Source: a virus. From it: a stretch of DNA of 35,768 nt. This document shows, piece after piece, positions 10,931 through 35,768 of this stretch (position 1 is the first letter of the stretch; each line of letters opens with the position of its first letter). The stretch is from the IMG/VR virus record IMGVR_UViG_3300022198_001859, positions 1-35,768 of that record; one strand, written 5' to 3'. Both the position numbers and the translations under genes were made by a program. Under the pieces are notes generated by a model. That model saw nothing but the letters and a program-made list of their open reading frames with translations, searched no databases and had not been told where the DNA came from.

Positions 10931-12583
10931 TCAAGGCTGCGTAGGAATAGCCTTTTCTACAGCTGGATTGCTATATCGAGCTACAGCTCCACCTCCAGTA
11001 GGATGAGTAGCAGAGCTGGTATCAATTCCACCTGCCGAGGTAAAGGTATTCAGAGCAGCCACAAACTGACAAATATCTAGATTTTCGGCTGGAGTACTTC
11101 CACCAGATCTTGAAAGACCAGAAACACCGACAACAAATCCATGCTGCCATGCAAAGATCATAAAATCTTTTAGTTCATCAAAGCTATACTGAGGAGCGTC
11201 CGTTAGGGTTCGCACCAAATATCCAGCATCAAAGATAATATGCTGCTCATGAATAGCTGGATTCCACCAAATGTTGTCTATAAATCTTTTTCCATCTGAA
11301 TCCCAATTATTTGTATCAGCATCTGTTGAATATTGCTCAGTTGTATAATAAGAAGGGAAAAATCCCCAGTGAGCGGCTACTGAATACCTTTCATCAGGCA
11401 CGCCGGATAATGATGTACCATCCCACGTAGTACCATAAGGATGGAATCGCTTATCGGCTCCTGTAAAAGTACTAGTCATTGGTGAAGCTTCAAACAGGAA
11501 CGGAGTATCAGGATAAGCAGACTTTACAGCTTCAGCTGCTGCTGCTGTGTCATTAAACTCTTGGAAAGAATTACCAGACACTCCCCATGTTAGTCCATTA
11601 AAGCCTAGGCTCTTAATGCCATTAACTTCATAATCCCAGAAGCCACGATCAAATCCATGTGCATCATTTGGCTTAACCCATCGAAGGGAGCCAGTACTAG
11701 CCTGAAAATCCGTGGAGGCTGAGTAACGATCGTAGCCGCCATCATAATCAGGTAGAGCGTCTACAGCACTCTTGTTCGTGCTATAAGCGTAGACAGCAGG
11801 CCAATCCCACTGATGAAAGACTTGTACATCAGCCAAGGAATTAGAGTACTGATTAAGCTGATCAATAGCTCGCTGCCAAGCATCAATAGAATCTCCCTGA
11901 GTACCAGACGTTGTTCCATCAGAAGTAAATACCGTAGGAATCCATCCAGCATCTGGAACAAAACCTGGATCACTTGGGTCAACAGACCAGTCATCTACAT
12001 CGGTACCATCTCCGTTTCCGCCCATAACAGCGTCATCAAGAGCGCGAGTAATAGTTCGATAATCACGGACATGGGATGCCTGCATTGTGCTATAGGAATT
12101 ACAGTTATACCCCTTCACAGCATCTGCGCCTTTCTCACCTGATGTTCCTTGAGCTTCTTGAATACCACCAACATTAGCATTCCAAGTAGCTCCAAAGTTT
12201 GTGATACCGCCAGAATTTGAAATAATATATCGAGCAATTCCCCCAGCCGCAGCATCCTGAAAGCCGCCATTATTAATAAAAGTAAGGCGACCATTATTAG
12301 CTGTAGTGGTATTATTTCCAGTTGTTCCAGTTTTAGACCAGTTTGGAAAAGTGCTAATACCCCATTGATCTGGGTTGGTTGTAATTGCGTATAGGTTAAG
12401 ATAAATCGGACGGAGATCAGGAACATGAGGCACAATAACCGTAGCCGTAGCCTCCTCTTCCACACTGTGGACTCCAGAGGCTAGGGTTCCTGCTGTCTTG
12501 ATCTTTTGGTTTACTTCAAAGTAGTCAGCAGCGATCTGCTTTGGATTCCCCGAGGGACTCGGGAAAGGAATAAAGTCTGTCAT
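10931..12583 (-). CDS. Tail-associated / receptor-binding protein, possible glycoside-hydrolase-like fold (550 aa)
   Basis: Preceded by AAGGAGATACTT. After an N-terminal region (MTDFIPFPSPSGNPKQIAAD) that may attach it to the particle, the body is rich in aromatic residues and Asp. It shows repeated short hydrophobic strands ending in polar/acidic residues, e.g. VQVFHQWDWPAVYAYS (about 255-270), IKSLGFNGLTWGVSG (about 322-336), TPFLFEASPM (about 363-372) and HIIFDAGYLV (about 447-456). Such strands with W/D/E at their ends would fit a TIM-barrel polysaccharide-degrading domain. That is inference; I see no certain catalytic pair. Last gene of the fibre region, ahead of the lysis genes. No close family recognised. 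Confidence 0.6.
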   Translation of the reverse strand: MTDFIPFPSPSGNPKQIAADYFEVNQKIKTAGTLASGVHSVEEEATATVIVPHVPDLRPIYLNLYAITTNPDQWGISTFPNWSKTGTTGNNTTTANNGRLTFINNGGFQDAAAGGIARYIISNSGGITNFGATWNANVGGIQEAQGTSGEKGADAVKGYNCNSYSTMQASHVRDYRTITRALDDAVMGGNGDGTDVDDWSVDPSDPGFVPDAGWIPTVFTSDGTTSGTQGDSIDAWQRAIDQLNQYSNSLADVQVFHQWDWPAVYAYSTNKSAVDALPDYDGGYDRYSASTDFQASTGSLRWVKPNDAHGFDRGFWDYEVNGIKSLGFNGLTWGVSGNSFQEFNDTAAAAEAVKSAYPDTPFLFEASPMTSTFTGADKRFHPYGTTWDGTSLSGVPDERYSVAAHWGFFPSYYTTEQYSTDADTNNWDSDGKRFIDNIWWNPAIHEQHIIFDAGYLVRTLTDAPQYSFDELKDFMIFAWQHGFVVGVSGLSRSGGSTPAENLDICQFVAALNTFTSAGGIDTSSATHPTGGGAVARYSNPAVEKAIPTQP

Positions 12584-12612
12584 AAGTATCTCCTTAGAGA
12601 GTAAGATGAAAT

Positions 12613-12645
12613 CCTCTCCTCCAGCGGTAGCCGAAGGGAGGGTAA
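12613..12645 (-). terminator. Hairpin terminator before the 550-aa gene, TACC loop
   Basis: On the minus strand CCTTCGGC, loop TACC, GCTGGAGG gives 8 bp, with further pairs after a mismatch, followed by AGAGGATTTC. The U tract is weak. It closely resembles the hairpin at 16816-16843 in stem, loop and flanks. Confidence 0.6.
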
Positions 12646-12652
12646 GGGTTAA

Positions 12653-15202
12653 TTAAGTATATTCATACCTGATACCGGTACCGCCTTCGAGATTAGTCGG
12701 CACATCCCAGCCGATATTTTCATCCTTCCTCGTGACTTCGGAAGTCCACGGGAATCCTGGGAATCCGTCAGTTTCATAGTGAGCGGCAAAACCACCGGAC
12801 GGACCATCTGGACTCGGCAAGAATTTGTACCCGACTGCCGATTGCCAGTTTGCGGATGTTCCCCCTACATAGTGCCGCTGTCCATCTGTATTTTGGACGA
12901 TATAGCAATCACGCAGCAGCGTTCGCTGTGCGCCGGTGTGGAATGGTGTCACATTACTATATGCAGTGCTTCCTGAGATATATGGAGCTCCAACATAGTC
13001 CCCATATTGGAAAGAACAGTCTTCAATTAGCAGGCCATCGGATGATGTAGAAAGCATAAGGCTTCGCAAACCGATAATTTCATACCCGGTTGTCATGCCA
13101 GTAACCTCTCCGGTTGCATACTTTCCGTCGTAGTTGATGTTCAGATTCACGTTGCGAATAGAACAGGAGATTAGTCCGCCGTTGTCTCCCGGGGTCAAAC
13201 CTTGGGATCTTGACCAGACATCATTCATACACTGCACATCATCCATGTAGATATTTACGAGAGGAAGTCTTCCAGCTGCATTGTAGTCCGTACCAACTTG
13301 CATGATGTCACTATGGTTGATTCCCGGCAGCTGAATGCTATAGGACGACCCAGGAATAGCACCCGCAGCGATATAGGCGTTGTATGCGAACAACGGCACA
13401 GGCGTGTCCGGTGTAGTATTTCCGGGATCCCAGATGATCTTCATATTGGTCTCATCAGACTTAGCTAAATTGAAGAACAGTTTGTAATCACCGTAAGAAC
13501 CCCCCAATGCCGATGTCACATTCAAACATGGAAAGAATGTATGATAAAAGTTTGCAGTAAGTGCGTTTCCCAATGGGTCTGTCGCACCGGGAGTCTGATC
13601 TAGTTGGAGTTCAGCAGTGCCGTCTGCTCTAACGGTAAGGCTAACGAGATCACCGCTGCCTCCACTAAGGGTGCCGATGATTTCTGTTCCATCAACTGAA
13701 TCTATCGTCCACGTGAAAGTTGTATTTCCGTCACAGGAGTAGCCAGGCACCAATGATTGATCACATCTTCCTCCGGTGCAGTTGACGACCGCACCACCTG
13801 TAAACACGTCGAACATTACGTACGATCTTCGTACGTTAATTTCAAATGACGAAGCCCATCGTGACTCCTGATATTTCACATCACAATCTGTGACGAAAAA
13901 CCCCTGCTCTACAGAGGGGTTACTAAGCAGGTAAAAGGTTCCCCATTCCGTTCCAAGCCCACGGCCAGCAAAGTCCGTGTCTTCATTCAAAGTCCAGGAA
14001 GCGTCGCCTCTCAATGAGGATACAAGGTCTGGCCTCCATTCCTCCTCAACAAGACACTGATCAAACCAGAGGGCGTTTCCCTTGACGCCGTTGAACATAT
14101 GCCTGAATGTTCCAGCGCGCACATTATGACACACCGTTTTGAATTGGGCGTCACTAGCATTTATCTTGAATGAGACATTGCGGAAACATATCTGCGAGTT
14201 ATTGCCCCTTCTTGGGAGACTCGTTCCGCCTTGGAGTGGATCAAAGTTTCCTTCAAGGCCGCCTTGTGTCCATCCTACGATCCGACTATAGCTGGCCTGT
14301 GACGTCGTATTTTCCGATGTAACCTCGACCCACTTTGTTCCGAGGTTGTATCCCCAGTCGGCAGTGTCTGTCTCGAAGTAATGGTCTCCGGATTTGAGGA
14401 CAACACGACCGCCATTGGTGGCGGCTTCATAGATTCCCTTTGTAACGCTTTTGTATGGAGAACCAGTCGAACCGTCACCAGTTGAGTCACTACCAGTCTG
14501 GAAATCGACGAAGATGTCAGATTCCGCTGCACCGTTCTTTACGACGATCGTGTGTGTGTATTCTCCAGACCAAATACTGGAAAATCCAAACTTTCGTCGC
14601 CATTGTGACGATTCTCGCTGGTTGACCGTACTCAGTGATGCGTCTCTTGTGAAATGCGTCGGATACAAAGTTCCACCATAGGTGAGAGGATCAATCGCCT
14701 CGGCGTAGGCGTCCTTCCAAAGGTGCCTGATCCCATTCGTCCCATCATTCCATCTCGCATAAACAGCGGCCCGGAAATACTGGATTCCGTCAGGCAGTGC
14801 CGTCGTATCGACGAGGCAGTGATACGCCAGTAGATTAGTTCCATATTTCGTCTGAGTAGTTTCTGATGTTGCGGTATGAATTAGCGTCCAGTCATTAGGG
14901 TCGTCATTGACTAGATTGGCAACATCACCGCTAAACCGATAGAATTCAACCTTCTCGATTCCGGATGGCGTATTAGCTCCAACAGTGACGACCCACGAGG
15001 ATCCAGATGCTTCTTCGTGTGGAACCGAAAGCCATCTCGCAGTGGGTTTGATCGGCGTGGCTGACGTACCGTCTCTTTCCATGGTCATCCACGTATAGTC
15101 GTAGCCTTCGATCGGTACAGGGGAAGGAAATGCAAGCAAGGCCGAAGAAGAGCCAAGCTTAATCATAGGCTTTTGTGCCCCAATTTTACTTATACTTGTC
15201 AT
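12653..15202 (-). CDS. Pectate-lyase-like beta-helix tail protein / depolymerase candidate (849 aa)
   Basis: I place the start at 15202 (MTSISKIGAQKPMIKLGSS), which has AAGGGA nine nt upstream; the earlier in-frame start at 15289 would overlap the preceding gene by 74 nt. After a beta-rich N-terminal part comes a DUF1565/pectate-lyase-type entry motif (SDIFVDFQTGSDSTGDGSTG, then SPYKSVTKGIYEAATNGG and VVLKSGDHYF), about residues 230-285. In known phage tailspikes this begins a right-handed parallel beta-helix that binds or cleaves surface polysaccharide. Many short strands of the type 'CxFRNVSFKI', 'GLLIEDCSFQYGDYVG' and 'RTLLRDCYIV' follow. Catalytic residues cannot be assigned by eye. Codon use has more C/G in third positions than the capsid genes, consistent with module exchange. 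Confidence 0.75.
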   Translation of the reverse strand: MTSISKIGAQKPMIKLGSSSALLAFPSPVPIEGYDYTWMTMERDGTSATPIKPTARWLSVPHEEASGSSWVVTVGANTPSGIEKVEFYRFSGDVANLVNDDPNDWTLIHTATSETTQTKYGTNLLAYHCLVDTTALPDGIQYFRAAVYARWNDGTNGIRHLWKDAYAEAIDPLTYGGTLYPTHFTRDASLSTVNQRESSQWRRKFGFSSIWSGEYTHTIVVKNGAAESDIFVDFQTGSDSTGDGSTGSPYKSVTKGIYEAATNGGRVVLKSGDHYFETDTADWGYNLGTKWVEVTSENTTSQASYSRIVGWTQGGLEGNFDPLQGGTSLPRRGNNSQICFRNVSFKINASDAQFKTVCHNVRAGTFRHMFNGVKGNALWFDQCLVEEEWRPDLVSSLRGDASWTLNEDTDFAGRGLGTEWGTFYLLSNPSVEQGFFVTDCDVKYQESRWASSFEINVRRSYVMFDVFTGGAVVNCTGGRCDQSLVPGYSCDGNTTFTWTIDSVDGTEIIGTLSGGSGDLVSLTVRADGTAELQLDQTPGATDPLGNALTANFYHTFFPCLNVTSALGGSYGDYKLFFNLAKSDETNMKIIWDPGNTTPDTPVPLFAYNAYIAAGAIPGSSYSIQLPGINHSDIMQVGTDYNAAGRLPLVNIYMDDVQCMNDVWSRSQGLTPGDNGGLISCSIRNVNLNINYDGKYATGEVTGMTTGYEIIGLRSLMLSTSSDGLLIEDCSFQYGDYVGAPYISGSTAYSNVTPFHTGAQRTLLRDCYIVQNTDGQRHYVGGTSANWQSAVGYKFLPSPDGPSGGFAAHYETDGFPGFPWTSEVTRKDENIGWDVPTNLEGGTGIRYEYT

Positions 15203-15215
15203 TGTATTGTTTCCC

Positions 15216-16247
15216 TTATGGGGTATAAGGTCCGTCGTAGTTTCTCCACGACGCAAAAGTTCCTGGGTCGTTTTCGTACTGGACGACAATGTCGCCGACT
15301 GCCCACCCGTCCGTGCCTTCGTTTACGGTTGTCAGGCGTTGCCCGGTACTATTGACACTCCAGGAGTTATATCTTACTGACCATTGTTGTGCGGAGTCAT
15401 CCCACACCGCATAGTAAACAGGGCCTTGCTGGGCCGACGAATACGATAGAACTGCGAAGTAACCGCCGATTGGTCCCATAAACGTCGCATCGTCTATATT
15501 CCCGCCGACACTGGCAGACGTAATCTCGATGATGAGCGGTACGGTGTTTCCAAACCCTGTGCTGGTGATCTGAAAAACACCAGAGTGATTGGTATCCCAA
15601 TCAGGACCAGCAGCCGCCACGGTAACAGCAAGGGCATCCGACGCCGGGCTATCGCTAGCCGTGGCCGAGCTCACCGTACAGGTAACAGTAAAGCTACCAG
15701 AGGTAGAGAAGGTGATGTCCGTAGTAGCCGCCGTAGGAGTAGCGATCGTTGCGCTGCCGTCCGTGGTAGTCCACAGGTAGGTAGCATCGGTAGCATCGCC
15801 ATCGAAGGCAGCGGAGTAGGACTCAGCCACGCCCTCAGTGGGTGCTGCGGAGCCAGTAACCGTAACCGTACCAATGGTTGTGCTAGAGCCAGCCGTAAGG
15901 TTGACACTCTGCTGAGTGGTCGTCGTTAGGTTGGTACCAGTGGACGAGGTGATGTCCGCACCAGTACCGGAATAGGCCATCTTGGCGATGACCGTAGTAT
16001 TGCTAGTGATCTCAACGGTGAGGCTATGGTCAGGCTCGGTGGACTCAGCGAATGCACCGCCACCTACGCTATACCAGATAGCGATATCACCGGGAATGTC
16101 AAAGAGGGTAGTATCAAAGGCTGGGGTTACCTTCCACGTGGCAGAGCCACCGGCAGGAACCTCCTGATCAACAACCCAGTTATCAGTAAGCGAGAAGACT
16201 AGGTTGTTTCCGTCGCCTACTACAAGATTAAAAGGTCCAGTAGACAT
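15216..16247 (-). CDS. Ig/PKD-like domain tail protein with shared C-terminal domain (343 aa)
   Basis: SD AGGAGG precedes the start. The N-terminal half is Thr/Ser-rich beta sequence. Residues about 128-212 look like a PKD/Ig-like domain (ESYSAAFDGDATDATYLWTT, then SGSFTVTCTVSSATAS). The C-terminal part begins at a TVAAAGPDWDT linker and ends FASWRNYDGPYTP. The same linker and ending occur in the 624-aa protein (19518-21392), so the two share a modular C-terminal domain of about 130-145 residues. Ig-like domains on phage structural proteins commonly help weak adhesion to surface glycans. It is likely a fibre accessory or receptor-binding protein. Confidence 0.7.
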   Translation of the reverse strand: MSTGPFNLVVGDGNNLVFSLTDNWVVDQEVPAGGSATWKVTPAFDTTLFDIPGDIAIWYSVGGGAFAESTEPDHSLTVEITSNTTVIAKMAYSGTGADITSSTGTNLTTTTQQSVNLTAGSSTTIGTVTVTGSAAPTEGVAESYSAAFDGDATDATYLWTTTDGSATIATPTAATTDITFSTSGSFTVTCTVSSATASDSPASDALAVTVAAAGPDWDTNHSGVFQITSTGFGNTVPLIIEITSASVGGNIDDATFMGPIGGYFAVLSYSSAQQGPVYYAVWDDSAQQWSVRYNSWSVNSTGQRLTTVNEGTDGWAVGDIVVQYENDPGTFASWRNYDGPYTP

Positions 16248-16259
16248 AAGAACCTCCTA

Positions 16260-16778
16260 TCAAGCCGCAGGATAAGTGGTGGTGACATGGTTAACAAAAT
16301 CGGTAAACGTCGCGGTAGGGTTCGCTCGGAAGAAGTCAGCCAAAGCTTCCATTTCCGTACGGCCATCGGTAATGACAAAGAGCTTCTTACCGTCATTGGC
16401 ATCCTGAGTACGAGTGTCGTACTGAGCTTGAGTCAGAGCAATGACATCGACAATAGATCCAGCAGCAACATCACCGCTGCTGGTTGTCAGCGCATCGCTA
16501 CTAACGTAGTTCTCGTCATTAGTAAGATCTGAGATATTGTCACCCGGCTGAACAGATGTGGTAGCCAAGGAACCTTGAGCGGCAGTTGCATAATCGGCTG
16601 CAGCAGTCGTAGCTGCGGTTCCAAGACCAAGATCAGCTTCGATCTTATCCGAAAGGGCTGCCACAGTAAGCTTACCAGTAGTGCCAGCAGTGGTATCCCA
16701 AACTGCCACAAGATCCGTATCCTGAACATCGGAACCAAGATCAACAAGTTCTGAAATGTTTCTATCGTTTGCGGCCAT
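16260..16778 (-). CDS. Small fibre-type structural protein (172 aa)
   Basis: Begins MAANDRNISELVDLGSDVQD behind AAGGAGATTTACT. The N-terminal third (LVDLGSDVQDTDLVAVWDTT ... GKLTVAALSDKI) is the repeat-like entry segment seen at the start of many phage fibre and baseplate proteins. The middle is low-complexity Ala/Thr, and the C-terminus (EMEALADFFRANPTATFTDF) is helical. It is probably a short fibre or adaptor linking the neighbouring receptor-binding proteins to the tail. A terminator lies just upstream and another fibre gene 12 nt downstream. Confidence 0.6.
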   Translation of the reverse strand: MAANDRNISELVDLGSDVQDTDLVAVWDTTAGTTGKLTVAALSDKIEADLGLGTAATTAAADYATAAQGSLATTSVQPGDNISDLTNDENYVSSDALTTSSGDVAAGSIVDVIALTQAQYDTRTQDANDGKKLFVITDGRTEMEALADFFRANPTATFTDFVNHVTTTYPAA

Positions 16779-16804
16779 AGTAAATCTCCTTATGAGAAAT
16801 AGTT

Positions 16805-16843
16805 AAAGTAAAAGTCCTACCCCCAGCGGCAGCCAAGGGTAGG
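16805..16843 (-). terminator. Rho-independent terminator, TGCC loop
   Basis: CCTACCCTTGGC (16843-16832), loop TGCC, then GCTGGGGGTAGG (16827-16816): a 12-bp stem with G-U pairs followed by ACTTTTACTTT. A clear terminator after the 880-aa gene; sequence-related to the one at 12613-12645. Confidence 0.85.
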
Positions 16844-16878
16844 GTTAGGGTTAGCCATAAAACAAATTTGTCGTTAAT

Positions 16879-19521
16879 TTATAAACAAGTTCCAAGATCT
16901 GGAGCATTCCTGACTCCTGGCTCCAGCCACGTGTCATCTGGAGTTGAACCACCGGCGTATATGGCTTCATCATCCGGGAGATTTTCAAAGTCAGAAATGT
17001 AGGTCGTGTACCACGCAGTGTAGCCTGACGATCTGTCCTTGATTGACTTTACATCGGCAAGCGATGGGGCGGAGCTGACCCATCGAACGCCGATCTGCCC
17101 ACCATCTGTTGCGCCATTCAGCAGATCTAAATCCGTCGGAAGCAAGGTCGAGGAGCTCAAATAACAACCGACCGTTGACTCCCTGTTTGGATTCTGCGCT
17201 ATTCCATCAACCTGCCCGATGTCGGCCGCGCAATTTGCCGTCAAATGCGACTGGCATCTTTGAGTCCAGAAGTTGTTTGACATTCTTACAACGTCCGATT
17301 TTCCGTTTGTTAGTGTCGGGAAAACACTGGAGCCGGAAATTTGAGCTCCTTGGAAGTAGTTGTTATGGAATCTGCTTGTAAGTCTAAAGGGCTGCGACGA
17401 TGACGACATCAATAGCTGGCCGGGCGTGAACGATGTACTCAGAGACACATGAGTATTTGAGGCGACCAGATATCGGAAATTTGGAAACAGATCTTCCGAT
17501 GACCAGAACGCATCTTGATCATGGTTGTACACGGTACCGAAATTTTGTGAATACCAGACAGCTGGCGTCAACGTCCGGTAGTTGGTCTCGATGAAAAGGT
17601 TGCCTTTCATCTCGAACCGATATGGTTGTTGATCTGTTCGGATCGTTCCTGAACCATATGTCGCGTGCTGCATCGTAACACCTCTAGTGGTGTTGAACAC
17701 TATGTTGCCACTGAACACCGCATTGTTGCATGTTCCCTGATAGAAGGAGACGCACTGGCCGTGTTCTGTCAGCGGGTTGCAGAAAAATGAATTTGTAACG
17801 ACTGACGCAAGACCGTTTCCTTGCGTCGTTCCTTCCGGCAAACCATAAGACGAGTCCGGAGTTCCACTCATGTTGATGTTCGACGATTGATACGTCGGCC
17901 CGAACCAGCACTTATCAACAGTGAGACCAGGCGAGCCATATAACTGAGAGTAGAAAAACTGATCGAAGACCGATCTTTCTACACGTCCTTGGACTCTAGA
18001 AATTGCGTTCTGTCCATAGGAAAATTCGCAATCAGAGATATGCACAAGCGCTCCAACTCTCGGCGAAGTTGATCGCAGCATCTGGCGTCCACAGCGCATC
18101 GAGCAGTTGCTGAACTTGACATATTTGCTTCCGGAACTTAGATCGTCGAGAGTATCCGGATAAGCGTAGTTGTCCCCAATCACGAAAAGTTCCGCAGAAG
18201 CAATCCCGAAAACGGAGCTGTTTACAGAGCGAACATCACGTGGTTTCCAGTACATCGTCTGTTCGTTCGGGAAATAGACGATTTGTCCAGACTCAAGGTT
18301 AGCTGGTGGGCCGAAGATAGCGGCGTTCAAATATGAAGAGACGCTTGAAAACGTCAGCAAATTGAAGTCTTCTGAAAATAGAAACCTAATCTCATTCGGA
18401 GATGCTTCTTCGGTTACACTTTGAACTGGACACCAGAACACCCGATTGTCCGAGGATTGTACATTCAGCGAACAACCACGCGAATCCGATATAAGACCAC
18501 CAACCTCATTGAAATTAAACGCCTGAAGAATGCCAGCGATGTCGCTTGGGTTCGTAAATACAACTCCGCCGACTGTTCTATAAGTCAGTCTAACTTCCCA
18601 GTCAATTCCAATTCCGATTGATTCGACAAGACTACCGATTGAATCCGATGTGAAAGAAACGACGCTTCCATCTCGCGAAAAGCTAGTGTAGGTAACTTGC
18701 GCCGACGTAGACCCAGGGTTCAGGAATATTACCTTTCCGGAGTTTGTAAAATAATCAATAGCCTCATCAGTTGTTCCAAATGTCATTTGGATAACCCAGC
18801 TTCCAGAGCTGCGAGAAGCACTAATTGAATTAAGTCCGATGTCGGATCCCTCTACAGTCTGCGTAACCGTTGCATCCCAAGAAGAATCTGGTACAATTGA
18901 GTTAGTGCTTAGATTGTAAGAAGATACAAAAGGATTTCCGCGATGGTCCATCAAATAACCGTCAAGCCTGCTGATATTGCTTGAAGTTGTAATTTCAACT
19001 CTTGTCACATTTCCTAAAGAGTAGTCGTCTACTGCAATATCATCATCAGCCCAAACAGTTCCGAACTCGATGTCTCGCTCATTTGGCGGATAAATTATCT
19101 GTTTTGGAGCTTTCTCATACGAACACCACAAGAACGGAGGGTACTCAACGATAGATCCATTTGTCTTGAAATCACAACTGGCCCGATAGACTCCCGGTCC
19201 AAAAGTGTTTAATTCGTCTGCTAACCAGCTCGGCTGGAAGCCGCCGTAGAAATTGCCGTTTTCGATTGTGATCGTTTTGTCTGTTGGCAACACGATTGCA
19301 GAATCGTGGGAAATTGAAACTCCACCCCTATCTAGGGAGCTGATGTAGTTCTTTCCCTCCAGATCGATTGTTGATCCGTCTTCGGCAGAATCTATTGTGG
19401 ATTGCAAGGAAGCAAGAGAGAAAAACTCAAGCTGCTCTTCTTGAATACTTCCGGACGCAATTGTCACTGATGAACCATTGAACCGAAAGCTTGCCGCGTT
19501 CGTGCCTTTTGCGATTCTCAT
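16879..19521 (-). CDS. Large parallel beta-helix tail protein / tailspike candidate (880 aa)
   Basis: Starts MRIAKGTNAASFRFNGSS in an ATGA overlap with the 624-aa gene. The pattern LASLQSTIDSAEDGSTIDLE followed by YISS and then TITIENGNFYGGFQ (about residues 32-95) is the usual entry to a pectate-lyase/right-handed beta-helix fold: a short helix, then strands of 'sTIdLeG..y' type. Many helix turns follow (e.g. KYVKFSNCSMRCGRQML, ALVHISDCEFSYGQNAISR, VVTNSFFCNPLTEHGQCVSF, AVFSGNIVFNTTRGVTM). These are consistent with a trimeric tailspike that recognises or degrades host polysaccharide. No catalytic residues can be named. Its codon use differs visibly from the capsid genes, suggesting a laterally exchanged module. 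Confidence 0.75.
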   Translation of the reverse strand: MRIAKGTNAASFRFNGSSVTIASGSIQEEQLEFFSLASLQSTIDSAEDGSTIDLEGKNYISSLDRGGVSISHDSAIVLPTDKTITIENGNFYGGFQPSWLADELNTFGPGVYRASCDFKTNGSIVEYPPFLWCSYEKAPKQIIYPPNERDIEFGTVWADDDIAVDDYSLGNVTRVEITTSSNISRLDGYLMDHRGNPFVSSYNLSTNSIVPDSSWDATVTQTVEGSDIGLNSISASRSSGSWVIQMTFGTTDEAIDYFTNSGKVIFLNPGSTSAQVTYTSFSRDGSVVSFTSDSIGSLVESIGIGIDWEVRLTYRTVGGVVFTNPSDIAGILQAFNFNEVGGLISDSRGCSLNVQSSDNRVFWCPVQSVTEEASPNEIRFLFSEDFNLLTFSSVSSYLNAAIFGPPANLESGQIVYFPNEQTMYWKPRDVRSVNSSVFGIASAELFVIGDNYAYPDTLDDLSSGSKYVKFSNCSMRCGRQMLRSTSPRVGALVHISDCEFSYGQNAISRVQGRVERSVFDQFFYSQLYGSPGLTVDKCWFGPTYQSSNINMSGTPDSSYGLPEGTTQGNGLASVVTNSFFCNPLTEHGQCVSFYQGTCNNAVFSGNIVFNTTRGVTMQHATYGSGTIRTDQQPYRFEMKGNLFIETNYRTLTPAVWYSQNFGTVYNHDQDAFWSSEDLFPNFRYLVASNTHVSLSTSFTPGQLLMSSSSQPFRLTSRFHNNYFQGAQISGSSVFPTLTNGKSDVVRMSNNFWTQRCQSHLTANCAADIGQVDGIAQNPNRESTVGCYLSSSTLLPTDLDLLNGATDGGQIGVRWVSSAPSLADVKSIKDRSSGYTAWYTTYISDFENLPDDEAIYAGGSTPDDTWLEPGVRNAPDLGTCL

Positions 19522-21392
19522 GATGTCGGCCCGTCATAAGCACGCCAGGACGAAGGATCGCCCGGGTCGCTTGCGTAAAAAATCATCGCGGCCGGAACGT
19601 CTATTGGGTTCTGGGGATCATTCCAGGGAATCGACAAACTATAGGTGACAAAAGATTTGTACACTCCAGTTGTAATGATTGCTCCAACCTCCCAACCGAG
19701 AACGTCGTTCCAATATCCTACATAGGGAGCGACACTGCCCATCGTATCGGCATTAAAGTAGTAGCCATTGGCGGAGTTAGTCCATGGACCAGCTCCGCCG
19801 GTGCCCCTCGTGATCTCTTCTGGCTGGATCGGGTTCATAGCCGGAGTCTGACCAACGACCGACCACATCGTCCCATCGTAAAACGATAAGTCGATATCGT
19901 TTCCGTCGTTGACCGACCCATAGATACGGCCAACGACGGTAGCCGCCGTGTCCCAGTCAGCAGCCGCAGCCGCCACGGTACCAAAGTCAATCATAGCAGT
20001 ATCGTCCGGGCTAACTCCATTGCTAGCCGTCACGACACAGGTCAGAGCTTCTCCACCGGAGAGCCCAGAGGTATCAAACGTAGCCTGATCAGTACCTGAG
20101 TCAACAGCATCTACCTTCCATTGATAGGAAATGGTAGGAGCCGGAGTACCAGTAGCACTGGCAGTAATCGAGGCTGTATCCCCTACGGTAAGACTGTCCG
20201 CAGTTTGATCACCACTAGCAGTTAGCGTAGGTGCTACACCACCTTCAAGAGACGTAGTGAGCCCATCCAACAGAGGAATCTCTCGCGACCAAGCATAGGT
20301 CAGCGAATAAGACTGCCCCTCGGGGACTCCGCCAATCGTAGGAATGGCGTAAGCAAAGCCACCGATCTCCACGGGAGCACCGGCAGTAGATTCGCCTGAG
20401 ATCTCCAGAGCAAGGGTAAGGTCATTGACCGCATCCTTGTAGATAACGTTACTTACGATTGAGCTAACAGTGTACTCTGTCTTTGATAGACTAATTGACT
20501 TTGGTGAAGTACCATTATCAAGGAAAAGAACCTCATCATCAACTTTTGTACATACATTAGTTACTGGTGCAGTAAAATCTGAAGCTTGGATAGTTTTATT
20601 AGCACTACTATAAGAACCTCCACCAAAATACCAAGCTTCAGCATCTGCAGCTGTATTAAAGTTTAAACTAAGAGTAGTACCATTACCTGTGATTGATGTT
20701 AACCCAAGCTCATCGTATAAAACATGTCCCGCGCTAAGCGTTTCTCCCAAAAAGATACCATCGCCTGGTCCTGCATCTGTAATAACATAATCTGGATCAA
20801 TGTATGCCGCTACTACACCATCTAATAGGACAGCACGCATAGCGGAGTTTTCTGCGAAGGTGCCATAAGCACCAATAAAAGTATCTGTTTGCGAGCCACC
20901 AGCTACTGCAATAATTCTATTACCTTCGATTACAGCACTAGCTACTCCATTGACTCCCCAAGTAACTTGACCATCAATAGAGTTCTGGTAGGCAAAATAA
21001 GGCTCACCAGCAAAGTCAAGTGCAGTATAATCAATTAGATCTAGTGTGCCTGCAATCTCCGTAACAGGATCACCAACAGTGGCGAGTGTTAGGATGTTAA
21101 CATCAGGATCAATGGTAGATCCACGAGAAAGCATATCGGTAATAGCTGCCTCAGCTCCCTCTAGGTCTCCGTCACGATGGAGAATACAACCGACCAAAGC
21201 ACCAATAGCAGCTGCTTGGGTGGGGTATTGTCCTACGAGGACAGACTGGTTAATGGTAAGAGTCCATACAGCCCGGTCCTGTGTTTCAATAATCTTGAAG
21301 GATCGTACATACTTAAACTTAGGGTTATTGATATGAACAATCCTTGCATAGTCTAGGTCTGCTGTGTAACCAGCAATACTAACTGTTGCCAT
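19518..21392 (-). CDS. Multi-domain tail protein with Ig-like domain and shared C-terminal domain (624 aa)
   Basis: Preceded by AAGGAGATCCTT. The N-terminus MATVSIAGYTADLDYARIVH is followed by a helical region (AAIGALVGCILHRDGDLEGAEAAITDML, about 62-89) and beta-rich segments. Residues about 388-470 form an Ig-like domain (SLTVGDTASITASATGTPAP, then ISYQWKVDAVDSG and LTCVVTASNGVSPDD). After a TVAAAAADWDT linker the C-terminal domain ends PGDPSSWRAYDGPTS, homologous in layout to the end of the 343-aa protein. It is probably a fibre or head/tail decoration protein for host attachment. Its stop overlaps the start of the 880-aa beta-helix gene, suggesting a paired expression unit. Confidence 0.65.
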   Translation of the reverse strand: MATVSIAGYTADLDYARIVHINNPKFKYVRSFKIIETQDRAVWTLTINQSVLVGQYPTQAAAIGALVGCILHRDGDLEGAEAAITDMLSRGSTIDPDVNILTLATVGDPVTEIAGTLDLIDYTALDFAGEPYFAYQNSIDGQVTWGVNGVASAVIEGNRIIAVAGGSQTDTFIGAYGTFAENSAMRAVLLDGVVAAYIDPDYVITDAGPGDGIFLGETLSAGHVLYDELGLTSITGNGTTLSLNFNTAADAEAWYFGGGSYSSANKTIQASDFTAPVTNVCTKVDDEVLFLDNGTSPKSISLSKTEYTVSSIVSNVIYKDAVNDLTLALEISGESTAGAPVEIGGFAYAIPTIGGVPEGQSYSLTYAWSREIPLLDGLTTSLEGGVAPTLTASGDQTADSLTVGDTASITASATGTPAPTISYQWKVDAVDSGTDQATFDTSGLSGGEALTCVVTASNGVSPDDTAMIDFGTVAAAAADWDTAATVVGRIYGSVNDGNDIDLSFYDGTMWSVVGQTPAMNPIQPEEITRGTGGAGPWTNSANGYYFNADTMGSVAPYVGYWNDVLGWEVGAIITTGVYKSFVTYSLSIPWNDPQNPIDVPAAMIFYASDPGDPSSWRAYDGPTS

Positions 21393-27118: not shown

Positions 27119-28241
27119 TCACTTATCAGCGTATCCGAACGAACCGGCGCTGTTCTGAAGCTTAACAAGAACCTCAGCTCGGGTTGGAGCACCAGCAGCA
27201 GCGTAACTGATGTCGGTGGGAGTACCGGCAACGTTAGCCTTTCGGTTAACAACGATCTTAGCGAGTTCTGGCTTGAGAATGCCAGTACCGCTCATCATCG
27301 AGGCGACGGTGAAGGTGGTGTTACGACGGATATCATCTTCGGTATCGACGACGAGACCAGTCTTACGAAGCGAAGCAACGCACTCTGGCATCCAGATAAG
27401 AGCACGGACGCCAGCACCGACAGTGTCCACAGCAATTGCGGTGGAAACCTGACCAGTAACATCATAACGAGCCTCACCAATGCTAGCAGCATCGTCAGTC
27501 TTGTAATCCTTGTTGGGAATGTGGTTGCTCTTGACGATGGTGACGCCCATGTAGCGAAGTGAATCGCTGAGGGAGTTCATGCCCTGAGTGAACGGAGCAC
27601 CGAGACCACCGGCAGCAGCAACACCACCGAACATGGGCTGCATGTTAACAGCTTCGTTAGCTGCATCAGCAACACCGAGACGACGGATTTGCTGGAAGAG
27701 ACGAGGAGAAACTGCGCAGTAGGTAGGACCGACTGGAACGCTGTTCTCCTGACAGTCAACAATGAAGTCCTCAATAGTAGCGAGAACTTCAAGAGCTGCT
27801 ACTTCATCATCATCAAGACCTGTGATTACACCGGGAGCTGGAAGAACAAGACCAGAGCGGGGATCCGAATTGGTCTTTGCAACTGAACCAGCACCAGCGA
27901 TAAATGCACCGATCTGCTTATCGCGAGCGTTTGCGAGAGTCTGACCAGCCTGTCGTGCGAGTTCCTGACGGTACTCCCACTGGGTGATCATAAGGTCAAT
28001 GTTGTCAAGCTCGAAGTGAGCAGCCATGGGGCGTGCATCGAGAGTAATATCAAAGTTACCAGCCTTAGAATCCTGGTTGCCTAGTAGCTCTTCGCCTGCG
28101 TGCCATGCTGGCTTAAGAGTTACAGTACCAGTGATGGGGAATTCCATCGAGCGGCCAGAAGAAATGGTCTTTGAAGTGACCATGGGCTCAAAGCTCTTGT
28201 ACTCATCATAGGCGTGGAGAACTTCACCACTCCAGATAGGA
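27119..28241 (-). CDS. Major capsid protein, T7 gp10-like, exon 2 (residues 36-409)
   Basis: The frame upstream of the first internal ATG (28183) is clearly coding: PIWSGEVLHAYDEYKSFEPM precedes MVTSKTISSGRSMEFPITG, the N-terminal signature of T7-like capsid proteins ('WSGEVL.a.......m...riisSGkSmqFPv.G'). Further family features are FELDNIDLMITQWEYRQELA (E-loop side helix) and a C-terminal P-domain region (ALIWMPECVASLRKTGLVVD). No start codon serves the WSGEVL segment, and no ribosome-binding site precedes 28183. The missing N-terminus lies 817 nt upstream, and removing a group I intron joins the two frames exactly. Exon 2 starts with T at 28241, completing the Leu codon CT|T. The spliced product is 409 aa (T7 gp10A 345). 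It forms the HK97-fold icosahedral shell on the scaffold. Confidence 0.93.
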
Positions 28242-29058
28242 CTTGCTGGAGTACCAAGTTTCGACTATATCATCCTGAGTAGCGGTACTCAGGGAACGCA
28301 CTTTCGTTATAGATCATTAACTTCTTTGAGTAATCAAAACGACCTTCGTATTGAAGATCAAACTTATATCTCATAGAAGGTGGAATATAATCCATAACGG
28401 GAAGAACCGTATCAAGTAACTGCCTCATTCCTGTGGAGTTAAATGATATCATGGGATATCCTCTTTGCTGAATCTGGCGTATGCCGGTGATTCCAAAGTT
28501 CTTGGTAAAGGAATCCATCATCTTATCAACTTCCTTTATAGTAAACGAGCATACCGCTAGGCGTCCTTGTCTACTACCGCTGGAGCTGTTGACTCGAAAG
28601 CTGCCATCATCACACCAAAGCCACGCAAGTCCAAGAGGTGTCAGCCGATCAAGCATATACATGCTCGGATACTTGACTCCAGTGGACTTCCATGCTCTAT
28701 TAAAGTTCCAATGACGAGCTGTGATGTGTGTCCTCATAAAGACCTGACCACTTCCCAACGTATTGATGTTGGATACGCGGCGATCAGACTCAATGAGACA
28801 TGCACGAATGGATTCTAGATATTCACGCTGTTGAGGAGCGTGCTTAATACTCATTTGGTTACGTCGAGTTTTATCAACATAACCATCACCAAGAAAGATA
28901 CCAAATAGACTGTAGTCTATCTCTTTATTACTAAACATTGTTTTACTTCCTGTAGTCTGTGGAGTTTCCGGTGCAATACCGGATTACCTGCTGATTTTCT
29001 ATCGCAATGATAGTTTTCCCAGCAATTCACGTTCTTTAAATTGGCCTCCTATTATCGA
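28242..29058 (-). ncRNA. Group I self-splicing intron in the major capsid gene (817 nt)
   Basis: Core elements are visible in order on the minus strand. P1: exon UGGCU pairs with guide GGCCA, with the splice-site U on a U-G wobble. P10: guide AUAGGA, adjacent to the P1 guide, is fully complementary to exon-2 UCCUAU. P4 is formed by the P element (AATTGCTGGGAAA) and Q element (AATCAGCAGG). P5: CTATC/GATAG. P6a: TCCGGT/ACCGGA. P7: R (CCACAGACTACA, near 28951-28962) and S (GATATAGTC, 28271-28263) through GACUA/UAGUC. P9: CTTG/CAAG. The last base is G (28242). It is needed to read the capsid gene, since exon 1 otherwise hits TAA two codons into the intron. P3 and P2/P8 are not resolved by eye, so the subgroup is open. 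Confidence 0.93.
28270..28938 (-). CDS. LAGLIDADG homing endonuclease in the capsid intron (222 aa)
   Basis: Two LAGLIDADG motifs: SLFGIFLGDGYVD (residues 10-22, with D18) and LGLAWLWCDDGSF (102-114, with D110/D111), about 90 residues apart as in single-chain endonucleases. It would cut intronless capsid alleles at the exon 1/exon 2 junction and so spread the intron. The ATG has AGGAAG about 8 nt upstream. The ORF lies between the R and S strands of P7, so it is inserted in the P3-P8 region, and its TGA stop (28272-28270) is part of the S element: the end of the gene doubles as ribozyme core. The frame is intact with both acidic motifs, which suggests recent or maintained activity. Confidence 0.93.
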   Translation of the reverse strand: MFSNKEIDYSLFGIFLGDGYVDKTRRNQMSIKHAPQQREYLESIRACLIESDRRVSNINTLGSGQVFMRTHITARHWNFNRAWKSTGVKYPSMYMLDRLTPLGLAWLWCDDGSFRVNSSSGSRQGRLAVCSFTIKEVDKMMDSFTKNFGITGIRQIQQRGYPMISFNSTGMRQLLDTVLPVMDYIPPSMRYKFDLQYEGRFDYSKKLMIYNESAFPEYRYSG

Positions 29059-29165
29059 AGCCAGAGCTTTGCATCAGCTCCAACAGTATTGTTAGTTGCG
29101 CCATACCCTGAGCGGTATGCCATGTTAGTATCGACTAGTGAATCACCAGATGGTGTATAGCTCAT
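29059..29165 (-). CDS. Major capsid protein exon 1 (residues 1-35 plus two bases)
   Basis: ATG at 29165 with AAAAGGAGCTTAATT upstream, a strong ribosome-binding site. It reads MSYTPSGDSLVDTNMAYRSG, then YGATNNTVGADAKLW and CT of a split Leu codon. Without splicing it would stop after LR at a TAA inside the intron, leaving a 37-residue peptide. Joined to exon 2 it gives ...DAKLWL|PIWSGEVL..., which restores the usual N-terminal arm of a T7-like capsid protein. This exon sits at the expected place, about 160 nt after scaffold. Confidence 0.92.
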
Positions 29166-33897: not shown

Positions 33898-34015
33898 TGA
33901 TCTTCTCCTGTTGGGCTTCAAATAATTTGACGATATCTGCAACGACCAGCTTAATTTCGCCGCCGTTCATCTGCCCGCCACGAGCGAGCTTTGCTTTGAT
34001 AATATCAAGGTTCAT
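33797..34015 (-). CDS. Small helical protein downstream of ribonucleotide reductase (72 aa)
   Basis: MNLDIIKAKLARGGQMNGGE start with AAGGAG upstream and an ATGA overlap with the reductase stop. The middle is a short coiled coil (VVADIVKLFEAQQEKINALE), the tail is Ser/Arg/Asp-rich and overlaps the next gene. No known family. The coupling to nrdJ is positional, so it need not be functionally related. Confidence 0.6.
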   Translation of the reverse strand: MNLDIIKAKLARGGQMNGGEIKLVVADIVKLFEAQQEKINALEEALDALARRSDRGPKKSSQTSEVRSETDE

Positions 34016-35768
34016 GGTTGTTCTCCTTCTACATCGACAATCTCACATGAGTTGCCGCTACATGCAAAAGTTTGCGAAGACTTGGTAGTGTCTTGCTTTT
34101 CATAATCACTAAGCTTTGACCAGTCGATCACTGGGAACGCAGCAACACGCCGCTCATATTCTTCCTTGGTGATCTCCTCGTATGGAGCTTGCTTATACAC
34201 GTGTTCACTCCTAGGGAGGAACGAGAGACCTTGAGCAATCGACCAGTAGTGATCGTATAGACGAGCACCAAGAGCCATAAACTCCTGAGGTTGATACTCA
34301 ATAGTAACCGATGGGTTGTGATCAGTCCAGTAGTTCTTGATCATGGCCCAATCAGTCAGCATGTCATTTGCATTGCCGCGAGTCTTTGGACCATCATATC
34401 CAATGACGAAATCAAAGACATAGGTGTTGTTAGGATTATTGACACAATCCTCACCTGGCACACCCTGATCTAGCATGAGCTGGTACAGCGGATCCTTCTT
34501 GTCACAGCGGACACGACGGATGTAGTACGGAGCATAACGGTGATGGATGCCAGACGAACTGTCAACCAAGCACGATACAGTACCAGATGGCTTAACTGTG
34601 GTGACTGCCTTGCTACGCTCTACTCCAAGAATCTCTGCCCACTTGTAGGCAGTATCCTGAGCCTTCTGTCGGGCAAAGATAAGCGTACTCTTGCTAGTAT
34701 CACGATCAAACAACAGATCACGATTGTCCTGAATACCCGTCAGCGAGACACCAAGAAGCCGCTCCTCCTCGGAGTTACGCTTCCAAGCCTTGCGAAGATA
34801 CGGGAAGTTGGTACAGCTAGACTGCACAACACCGATGATCGAGGCAATCTCTACTCGGCGCATGAGTTCATCCCTATCCATGCCTGGTCGAACCACGACC
34901 TCAGTCAGGTTACAGAACTGCATAGGACGGAGAGTGATCTCACCACAGGGGTTAGTACCAAAGTAGTGATCTGAGTCACGGCCAATATCATCTGAGCAAA
35001 GCTTGGCTGCTTGCCGGTTGAAAATACCACGCTCACCTGAATAGCTACGATAGATTGCTAGCCATTCCTCCATGAAGACATCCATCTCTGGCTTTTCTTC
35101 ATAGACCGCACTGTTGTTGGCGAGGGAACGGTAGGAGTGCTTCTCCCACCAATTCCCTGACTTGGCACGAGCCATCTCGTGATCATCGAGATCACTGAGA
35201 GAGATCATAGCCGAGCGTCGCACGCCGCCAACGATGACAGAGTTAGCAATGACACATGCCATGTCATGCACCTCAATGGGGCGGAGCTTGCGGCCACGGG
35301 CATTGTAGATCGTATTCGTAATAAAACGAAGACAATCCTCAAGAGGCCCTGGTCCGCTGGCGCGCCCTCCGAAGGTCTTAAGACGGGCACCAGCAGGACG
35401 AATCTTGCTGATGTCCCAAGTGGGGTGTACACCACCGAGAAGATTACTGAGCAATGCCTTGACAGCATCAGCCCAGCCAGCCTTGGAGTCCTTGACTGTA
35501 ATAATCACGGACTCGTCACGCTTGATATCTTCTGGTACGGCACTCCACTTCTCAACGACCCGTCGCTCTACGCTGTAGCCTACACCTGTACCATTCATGA
35601 GAACGTACAGCAGCTCAGCCATAGCAACCGGGCCATCTAGCTCCAAGTAGGAGCAGTTGTAAATACAAGTATTATCCCTGTTGGCAGCTGGTCCTGCGGT
35701 CATAAGAGCACGCATAGACGGCATTACCTCTAGGTTAAATACAGCATCACGAATATCAAGACGGGAAG
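34012..35768 (-). CDS. nrdJ: Class II (B12-dependent) ribonucleoside-triphosphate reductase, 5' end outside window
   Basis: Converts ribonucleotides to deoxyribonucleotides using adenosylcobalamin, supplying dNTPs for phage replication. The frame is open to the window edge (...DIRDAVFNLEVMPSMRALMTAG), so the N-terminus, perhaps about 100 residues, is missing. Counting from the Met at 35724, Cys24 in YNCSYLELDG, Cys260 and Glu262 in NPCGE, and Cys271 in FCNLTE correspond to C119, C408, E410 and C419 of the monomeric Lactobacillus leichmannii enzyme. The C-terminal pair in FACSGNSCE matches its C731/C736 redox shuttle; spacing agrees in each visible case. VKPSGTVSCLVDSSSGIHHR is the phosphate/effector-side region. 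All radical-site residues in view are intact, so the enzyme is probably active. Confidence 0.95.
   Translation of the reverse strand, partial: SRLDIRDAVFNLEVMPSMRALMTAGPAANRDNTCIYNCSYLELDGPVAMAELLYVLMNGTGVGYSVERRVVEKWSAVPEDIKRDESVIITVKDSKAGWADAVKALLSNLLGGVHPTWDISKIRPAGARLKTFGGRASGPGPLEDCLRFITNTIYNARGRKLRPIEVHDMACVIANSVIVGGVRRSAMISLSDLDDHEMARAKSGNWWEKHSYRSLANNSAVYEEKPEMDVFMEEWLAIYRSYSGERGIFNRQAAKLCSDDIGRDSDHYFGTNPCGEITLRPMQFCNLTEVVVRPGMDRDELMRRVEIASIIGVVQSSCTNFPYLRKAWKRNSEEERLLGVSLTGIQDNRDLLFDRDTSKSTLIFARQKAQDTAYKWAEILGVERSKAVTTVKPSGTVSCLVDSSSGIHHRYAPYYIRRVRCDKKDPLYQLMLDQGVPGEDCVNNPNNTYVFDFVIGYDGPKTRGNANDMLTDWAMIKNYWTDHNPSVTIEYQPQEFMALGARLYDHYWSIAQGLSFLPRSEHVYKQAPYEEITKEEYERRVAAFPVIDWSKLSDYEKQDTTKSSQTFACSGNSCEIVDVEGEQP

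Follow-up and report, generated by a model that had tools for sequence, protein, structure and literature searches.

A group I intron of probable subgroup IA, with a LAGLIDADG endonuclease reading frame, in the major capsid gene of an uncultured T7-like phage

Background

Introns in phage capsid genes have been described before. In the mycobacteriophage LittleE (JF937101), the major capsid gene contains a probable group I intron of about 819 bp with a LAGLIDADG-type open reading frame, and RT-PCR, the size of the protein, and the N-terminal sequence of the protein from virions have proven that it is spliced (Pope et al. 2013, PMC3706429). Another capsid intron, that of the lactococcal phage Tuc2009, is cited there too (PMC3706429). 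Group I introns of T7-like phages have been reported to interrupt DNA polymerase genes, with P6a coding for an HNH endonuclease (PMC3428280), and a LAGLIDADG endonuclease of family phrog_11023 lies within a DNA polymerase intron of the Bastillevirinae (Nitunavirus) (PMC11878797). The literature searched contained no paper on an intron in the capsid gene of a T7-like phage.

Here we analyse a window of 35,768 nucleotides, the whole of IMG/VR virus record IMGVR_UViG_3300022198_001859. A preliminary description, made from its sequence, had proposed that the capsid gene is split by a group I intron, and had presented a structural gene as a surprising place for one; the LittleE and Tuc2009 introns (PMC3706429) remove the surprise. 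We consider it about 95% probable that a T7-like capsid gene is interrupted at KLWL/PIW by a group I intron with a LAGLIDADG reading frame, its subgroup probably IA, and that this intron, like other members of its family, would splice and be expected to home.

Results and Discussion

The interrupted capsid gene

The gene and its parts are as follows.

27119-29165, minus strand: major capsid gene of an uncultured T7-like phage, interrupted at 29058-28242
Directly before exon 1, minus strand: ribosome site AAAAGGAG
29059-29165, minus strand: capsid exon 1, 107 nt; ATG, 35 codons and 2 nt; 3' end ...CTCTGGCT
28242-29058, minus strand: group I intron, 817 nt; starts TCGATAATAGG, ends ...CCAGCAAG (terminal G)
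27119-28241, minus strand: capsid exon 2, 1123 nt; starts TCCTATCTGG, encodes PIWSGEVL... up to the stop

We read the minus strand over 29500-26900. When the exons were spliced in silico at the bases given in the preliminary description, after T 29059 and after G 28242, a single frame of 409 amino acids with no stops was restored, so both cuts are correct to the base. Without splicing, translation of exon 1 would meet TAA TAG immediately past the junction codons (LWLR, then two stops). Stops immediately after the 5' junction are frequent in phage introns and keep ribosomes out of the ribozyme core. The only start in exon 2 is ATG 28183, which opens a stand-alone frame of 354 amino acids, and the truncated annotation foreseen at this position is therefore a plausible error: gene callers would report a capsid protein without its highly conserved N-terminal motif.

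The spliced product matched phrog_267, the T7-like major head protein, from residue 14 with E=1.4e-26, bearing out the expected likeness to T7-like capsid proteins. Exon 2 alone scored more poorly against the same profile (E=7.5e-24), and exon 1 alone had no match; its residues do align with the uninterrupted capsid relatives. Together with a match to PF21703, these results identify the product as a T7-like (gp10A) major capsid protein. Genes for scaffold, connector, tail tube, and nozzle are adjacent in the T7-type order, and the large terminase subunit gene is found further along the window.

A strong GC-rich hairpin followed by T's, seen by eye at 26990-26955 on the 3' side of the capsid gene, is likely to be a transcription terminator between the capsid and tail tube genes. 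Elsewhere in the window, a B12-dependent type ribonucleotide reductase gene (34012-35724) reaches the window end; its match begins at profile position 95, and the gene start is probably cut off. The region 10931-21392 contains several large minus-strand reading frames (550, 878, 880, and 624 amino acids) with no PHROG match, as well as a 343-amino-acid frame with a weak match to the PKD domain.

Empty sites in related phages

Among 2.9 million viral contigs scanned, we found 80 capsid loci. In 79 of them the frame is uninterrupted at the exact insertion point and reads K-L/M-W-x-x-x-W, which is the empty site that a group I intron insertion should leave in relatives, and this comparison strongly supports the proposal of a group I intron with these junctions in a T7-like major capsid gene. 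Across the joined exon flanks, locus L005 is identical at 60 of 60 nucleotides and locus L004 at 58 of 60. The sole exception among the 80 loci is L003, a contig of 42,113 bp whose intron is identical to ours. Over 9,119 bp it shows 15 differences from our contig, all of which lie outside the capsid gene and the intron, and by sequence the two contigs are variants of one phage. The relatives added by a wider scan, in which loci missed by the automatic motif test were read by eye, are also uninterrupted, with the exception of L003.

The insertion point falls between W35 and W39, both invariant in an alignment of 14 sequences, and the KLWL/PIW motif is a highly conserved N-terminal motif of the capsid protein, as expected for a putative homing site. 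The capsid gene of locus L151, which shares its sample prefix (3300007541) with L003, is related (52% identity) and has no intron. Codon identity to L004 and L005 is high beside the intron, at 28226-28167 (capsid residues 41-60), and lower at residues 61-100. A trace of co-conversion at residues 41-60 is possible but unproven, and capsid stretches elsewhere reach equal codon identity to these two loci.

Intron boundaries and ribozyme core

The intron contains the following elements, in transcript order.

29042-29052, minus strand: internal guide AATAGGAGGCCA, read directly; ATAGGA 29052-29047 (P10), then GGCCA 29046-29042 (P1)
29029-29034, minus strand: P3 5' strand GAACGT (free fold and reading of the sequence)
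28988-29025, minus strand: P4 (TTGCTG / CAGCAG) around P5 (CTATC / GATAG) (Rfam alignment, free fold, and sequence)
28967-28983, minus strand: P6a hairpin TCCGGT / ACCGGA (Rfam alignment, free fold, and sequence)
28953-28957, minus strand: P7 5' strand GACTA (Rfam alignment and sequence)
28951-28946, minus strand: Shine-Dalgarno-like AGGAAG before the endonuclease reading frame
28270-28938, minus strand: homing endonuclease reading frame, 222 amino acids, 669 nt, between P7 and the P3 3' strand
28294-28299, minus strand: P3 3' strand GCGTTC, within the endonuclease frame (free fold and sequence)
28274-28293, minus strand: P8 hairpin CCTGAGTA-CCGC-TACTCAGG, within the endonuclease frame (free fold and sequence)
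28263-28267, minus strand: P7 3' strand TAGTC (read from the sequence)
28242-28257, minus strand: short, weak P9 (TTGG / CCAG), inferred, and the intron-terminal G

The guide pairing proposed earlier was read in the sequence on both sides: in P1, GGCCA binds exon-1 UGGCU and places a U.G pair at the splice site, and in P10 every base of AUAGGA is paired with exon-2 UCCUAU. The last intron nucleotide is G 28242. All of these are group I features. The helices P4, P5, P6a, and P7 of the preliminary description are present, as are P3 and P8, which it did not list. The core helices P3, P4, P5, P6, P7, and P8 occur in order, and P9/P9.0 is short and uncertain. We found no related intron with covarying helices, and the pairing is therefore that of a single sequence.

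With the body of the reading frame removed, an unconstrained fold recovered P3, P4, P5, P6a, and P8 at -49.9 kcal/mol (z=-3.36; none of 200 shuffles was equally stable). P7 (GACTA/TAGTC) is absent from this fold because it forms a pseudoknot; it was identified by inspection and from the Rfam alignment. A strict P3-P4-P5-P7-P8 descriptor matched the intron and none of 3000 dinucleotide shuffles, and an intermediate helix-layout descriptor was matched by one of 3000, with thresholds chosen post hoc, once the structure had been seen. The loosest descriptor, with fixed 4-bp stems, misses the real structure. From the arrangement of P7, P8, and P7', and by comparison with T4-type introns, the intron is probably of subgroup IA. 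The position between P7 and P3, where the IA2 feature P7.1/P7.2 would stand, is taken up by the reading frame.

The search with the Rfam group I model RF00028, proposed earlier as a test in which a missing hit would refute the intron, had a divided outcome. At the gathering score (50 for RF00028, a criterion of detection and not a defining feature) Rfam gave no match in the window, in L003, or in 19 other loci including LittleE. In a relaxed search the best match in the region was RF00028 itself, a partial match of 19 bits (E=0.034) on the right helices, spanning P4-P6 and the P7 5' strand. Some 650 nt separate this match from the rest of the helices, and we attribute the low score to the 669-nt reading frame between P7 and the P3 3' strand, which splits the match. 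Since it also fails to detect the capsid intron of LittleE, for which splicing is proven, the curated threshold is a weak guide to introns of this kind.

The homing endonuclease reading frame

The reading frame within the intron matched PF03161 (E=2e-14), phrog_11023 (E=1.6e-14), and I-SceI (E=1.2e-5). It is intact and contains two LAGLIDADG motifs, FGIFLGDG and LAWLWCDDG, with the acidic residues retained; a profile match with two such motifs marks a LAGLIDADG homing endonuclease. Its stop codon is just upstream of P7'. The endonuclease frame doubles as P3' and P8 at its 3' end (28299-28270), so that the same bases encode protein and form the RNA core.

Because it carries an apparently intact two-motif endonuclease, the element is probably a mobile intron, judging from its sequence. 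The preliminary description was right to call it a group I intron and overlooked its probable mobility, since the 222-amino-acid frame at 28938-28270 had not been noticed. Apart from the same phage, no close relative of the endonuclease was found in viral contigs or in bacterial and archaeal genomes. Against phage records the endonuclease retrieved only proteins with 23% identity, and a search of those records for intron-like DNA gave only a 34-nt match (E=0.8). A pattern search with the 3' end of the intron returned 21 stretches, with an endonuclease match only in the contig already known.

Alternative explanations

The insert could be an assembly chimera, an endonuclease fragment joined into the capsid gene, and the source, an IMG/VR record, is probably a metagenome assembly. 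A one-off assembly error is contradicted by the second contig, which has the identical intron yet differs at 15 positions over 9.1 kb, and misassembly would not yield exact group I junctions; we regard a chimera as extremely improbable. Equally improbable is a free-standing endonuclease gene whose insertion left two capsid pieces to be translated separately, with no splicing. The ribosome-site-like sequence before the endonuclease frame and the internal ATG 28183 in exon 2 would fit such an arrangement, but the frame is flanked by a group I guide, core helices, and a terminal G, the junctions give the exact uninterrupted frame of the relatives, and the exon-2 codons before 28183 are conserved without any start codon to serve them.

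A decayed or poorly splicing ribozyme, leaving a truncated capsid protein from ATG 28183 or a defective lineage, would account for the low Rfam score and the minimal P9 region, and is very unlikely, if a shade less so than the other two. Every core helix is intact, the endonuclease frame is open with the acids of both motifs kept, and both phage variants preserve the capsid frame; a truncated capsid would, moreover, be without the highly conserved N-terminal motif.

Proposed splicing and homing

With a functional group I intron as the preferred reading, the capsid transcript would fold as a ribozyme whose guide grips exon 1 through P1 and exon 2 through P10. By analogy with the intron family, a guanosine cofactor would cut after U 29059, and exon 1 would next attack after G 28242, joining the exons so that the full 409-amino-acid capsid protein could be made. 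As capsid protein is needed in quantity, we infer that splicing is efficient. The predicted endonuclease would, again as in its family, cut the same conserved capsid site in intronless co-infecting relatives, into which the intron would be copied. With near-identical empty sites in relatives, both homing and interference between co-infecting phages are open to direct experiment.

The intron might also be a regulatory switch, with splicing delaying or limiting capsid production, or a weapon in co-infection, its endonuclease cutting the capsid site of intronless relatives and so suppressing competitors. We consider such a role rather unlikely. An intron endonuclease of phage PhiPA3 has been reported to suppress competitors (PMC11620839). 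The earlier suggestion that the intron times capsid synthesis finds no support in these results.

Comparison with known systems

The closest likeness in gene and element is to LittleE, whose capsid-gene intron is of similar size, with U before it, G at its end, and a LAGLIDADG-type reading frame. Unlike the phage studied here, LittleE is a long-tailed mycobacteriophage with an HK97-type capsid, and its endonuclease is on the strand opposite the capsid gene, whereas ours shares the strand of the capsid gene and overlaps helices of the ribozyme. The DNA polymerase introns of T7-like phages share the kind of host phage and the group I core, and in Pf-WMP3 the endonuclease frame, which has a ribosome site of its own, likewise overlaps helices of the core; those introns have HNH endonucleases in P6a, whereas the present one has a LAGLIDADG frame between P7 and P3' and interrupts the capsid gene. 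The Nitunavirus intron has an endonuclease of the same PHROG family in a phage group I intron, but differs in gene and phage group. I-SceI, the endonuclease of the mitochondrial omega intron, is a two-motif LAGLIDADG protein like ours and aligned over residues 12-193; it differs in its yeast mitochondrial origin, in its site, and in its low sequence similarity. Capsid-gene introns are thus already known, while their combination with a T7-like phage seems to be new, and the present locus adds a T7-like phage clade to those with a group I intron in the capsid gene.
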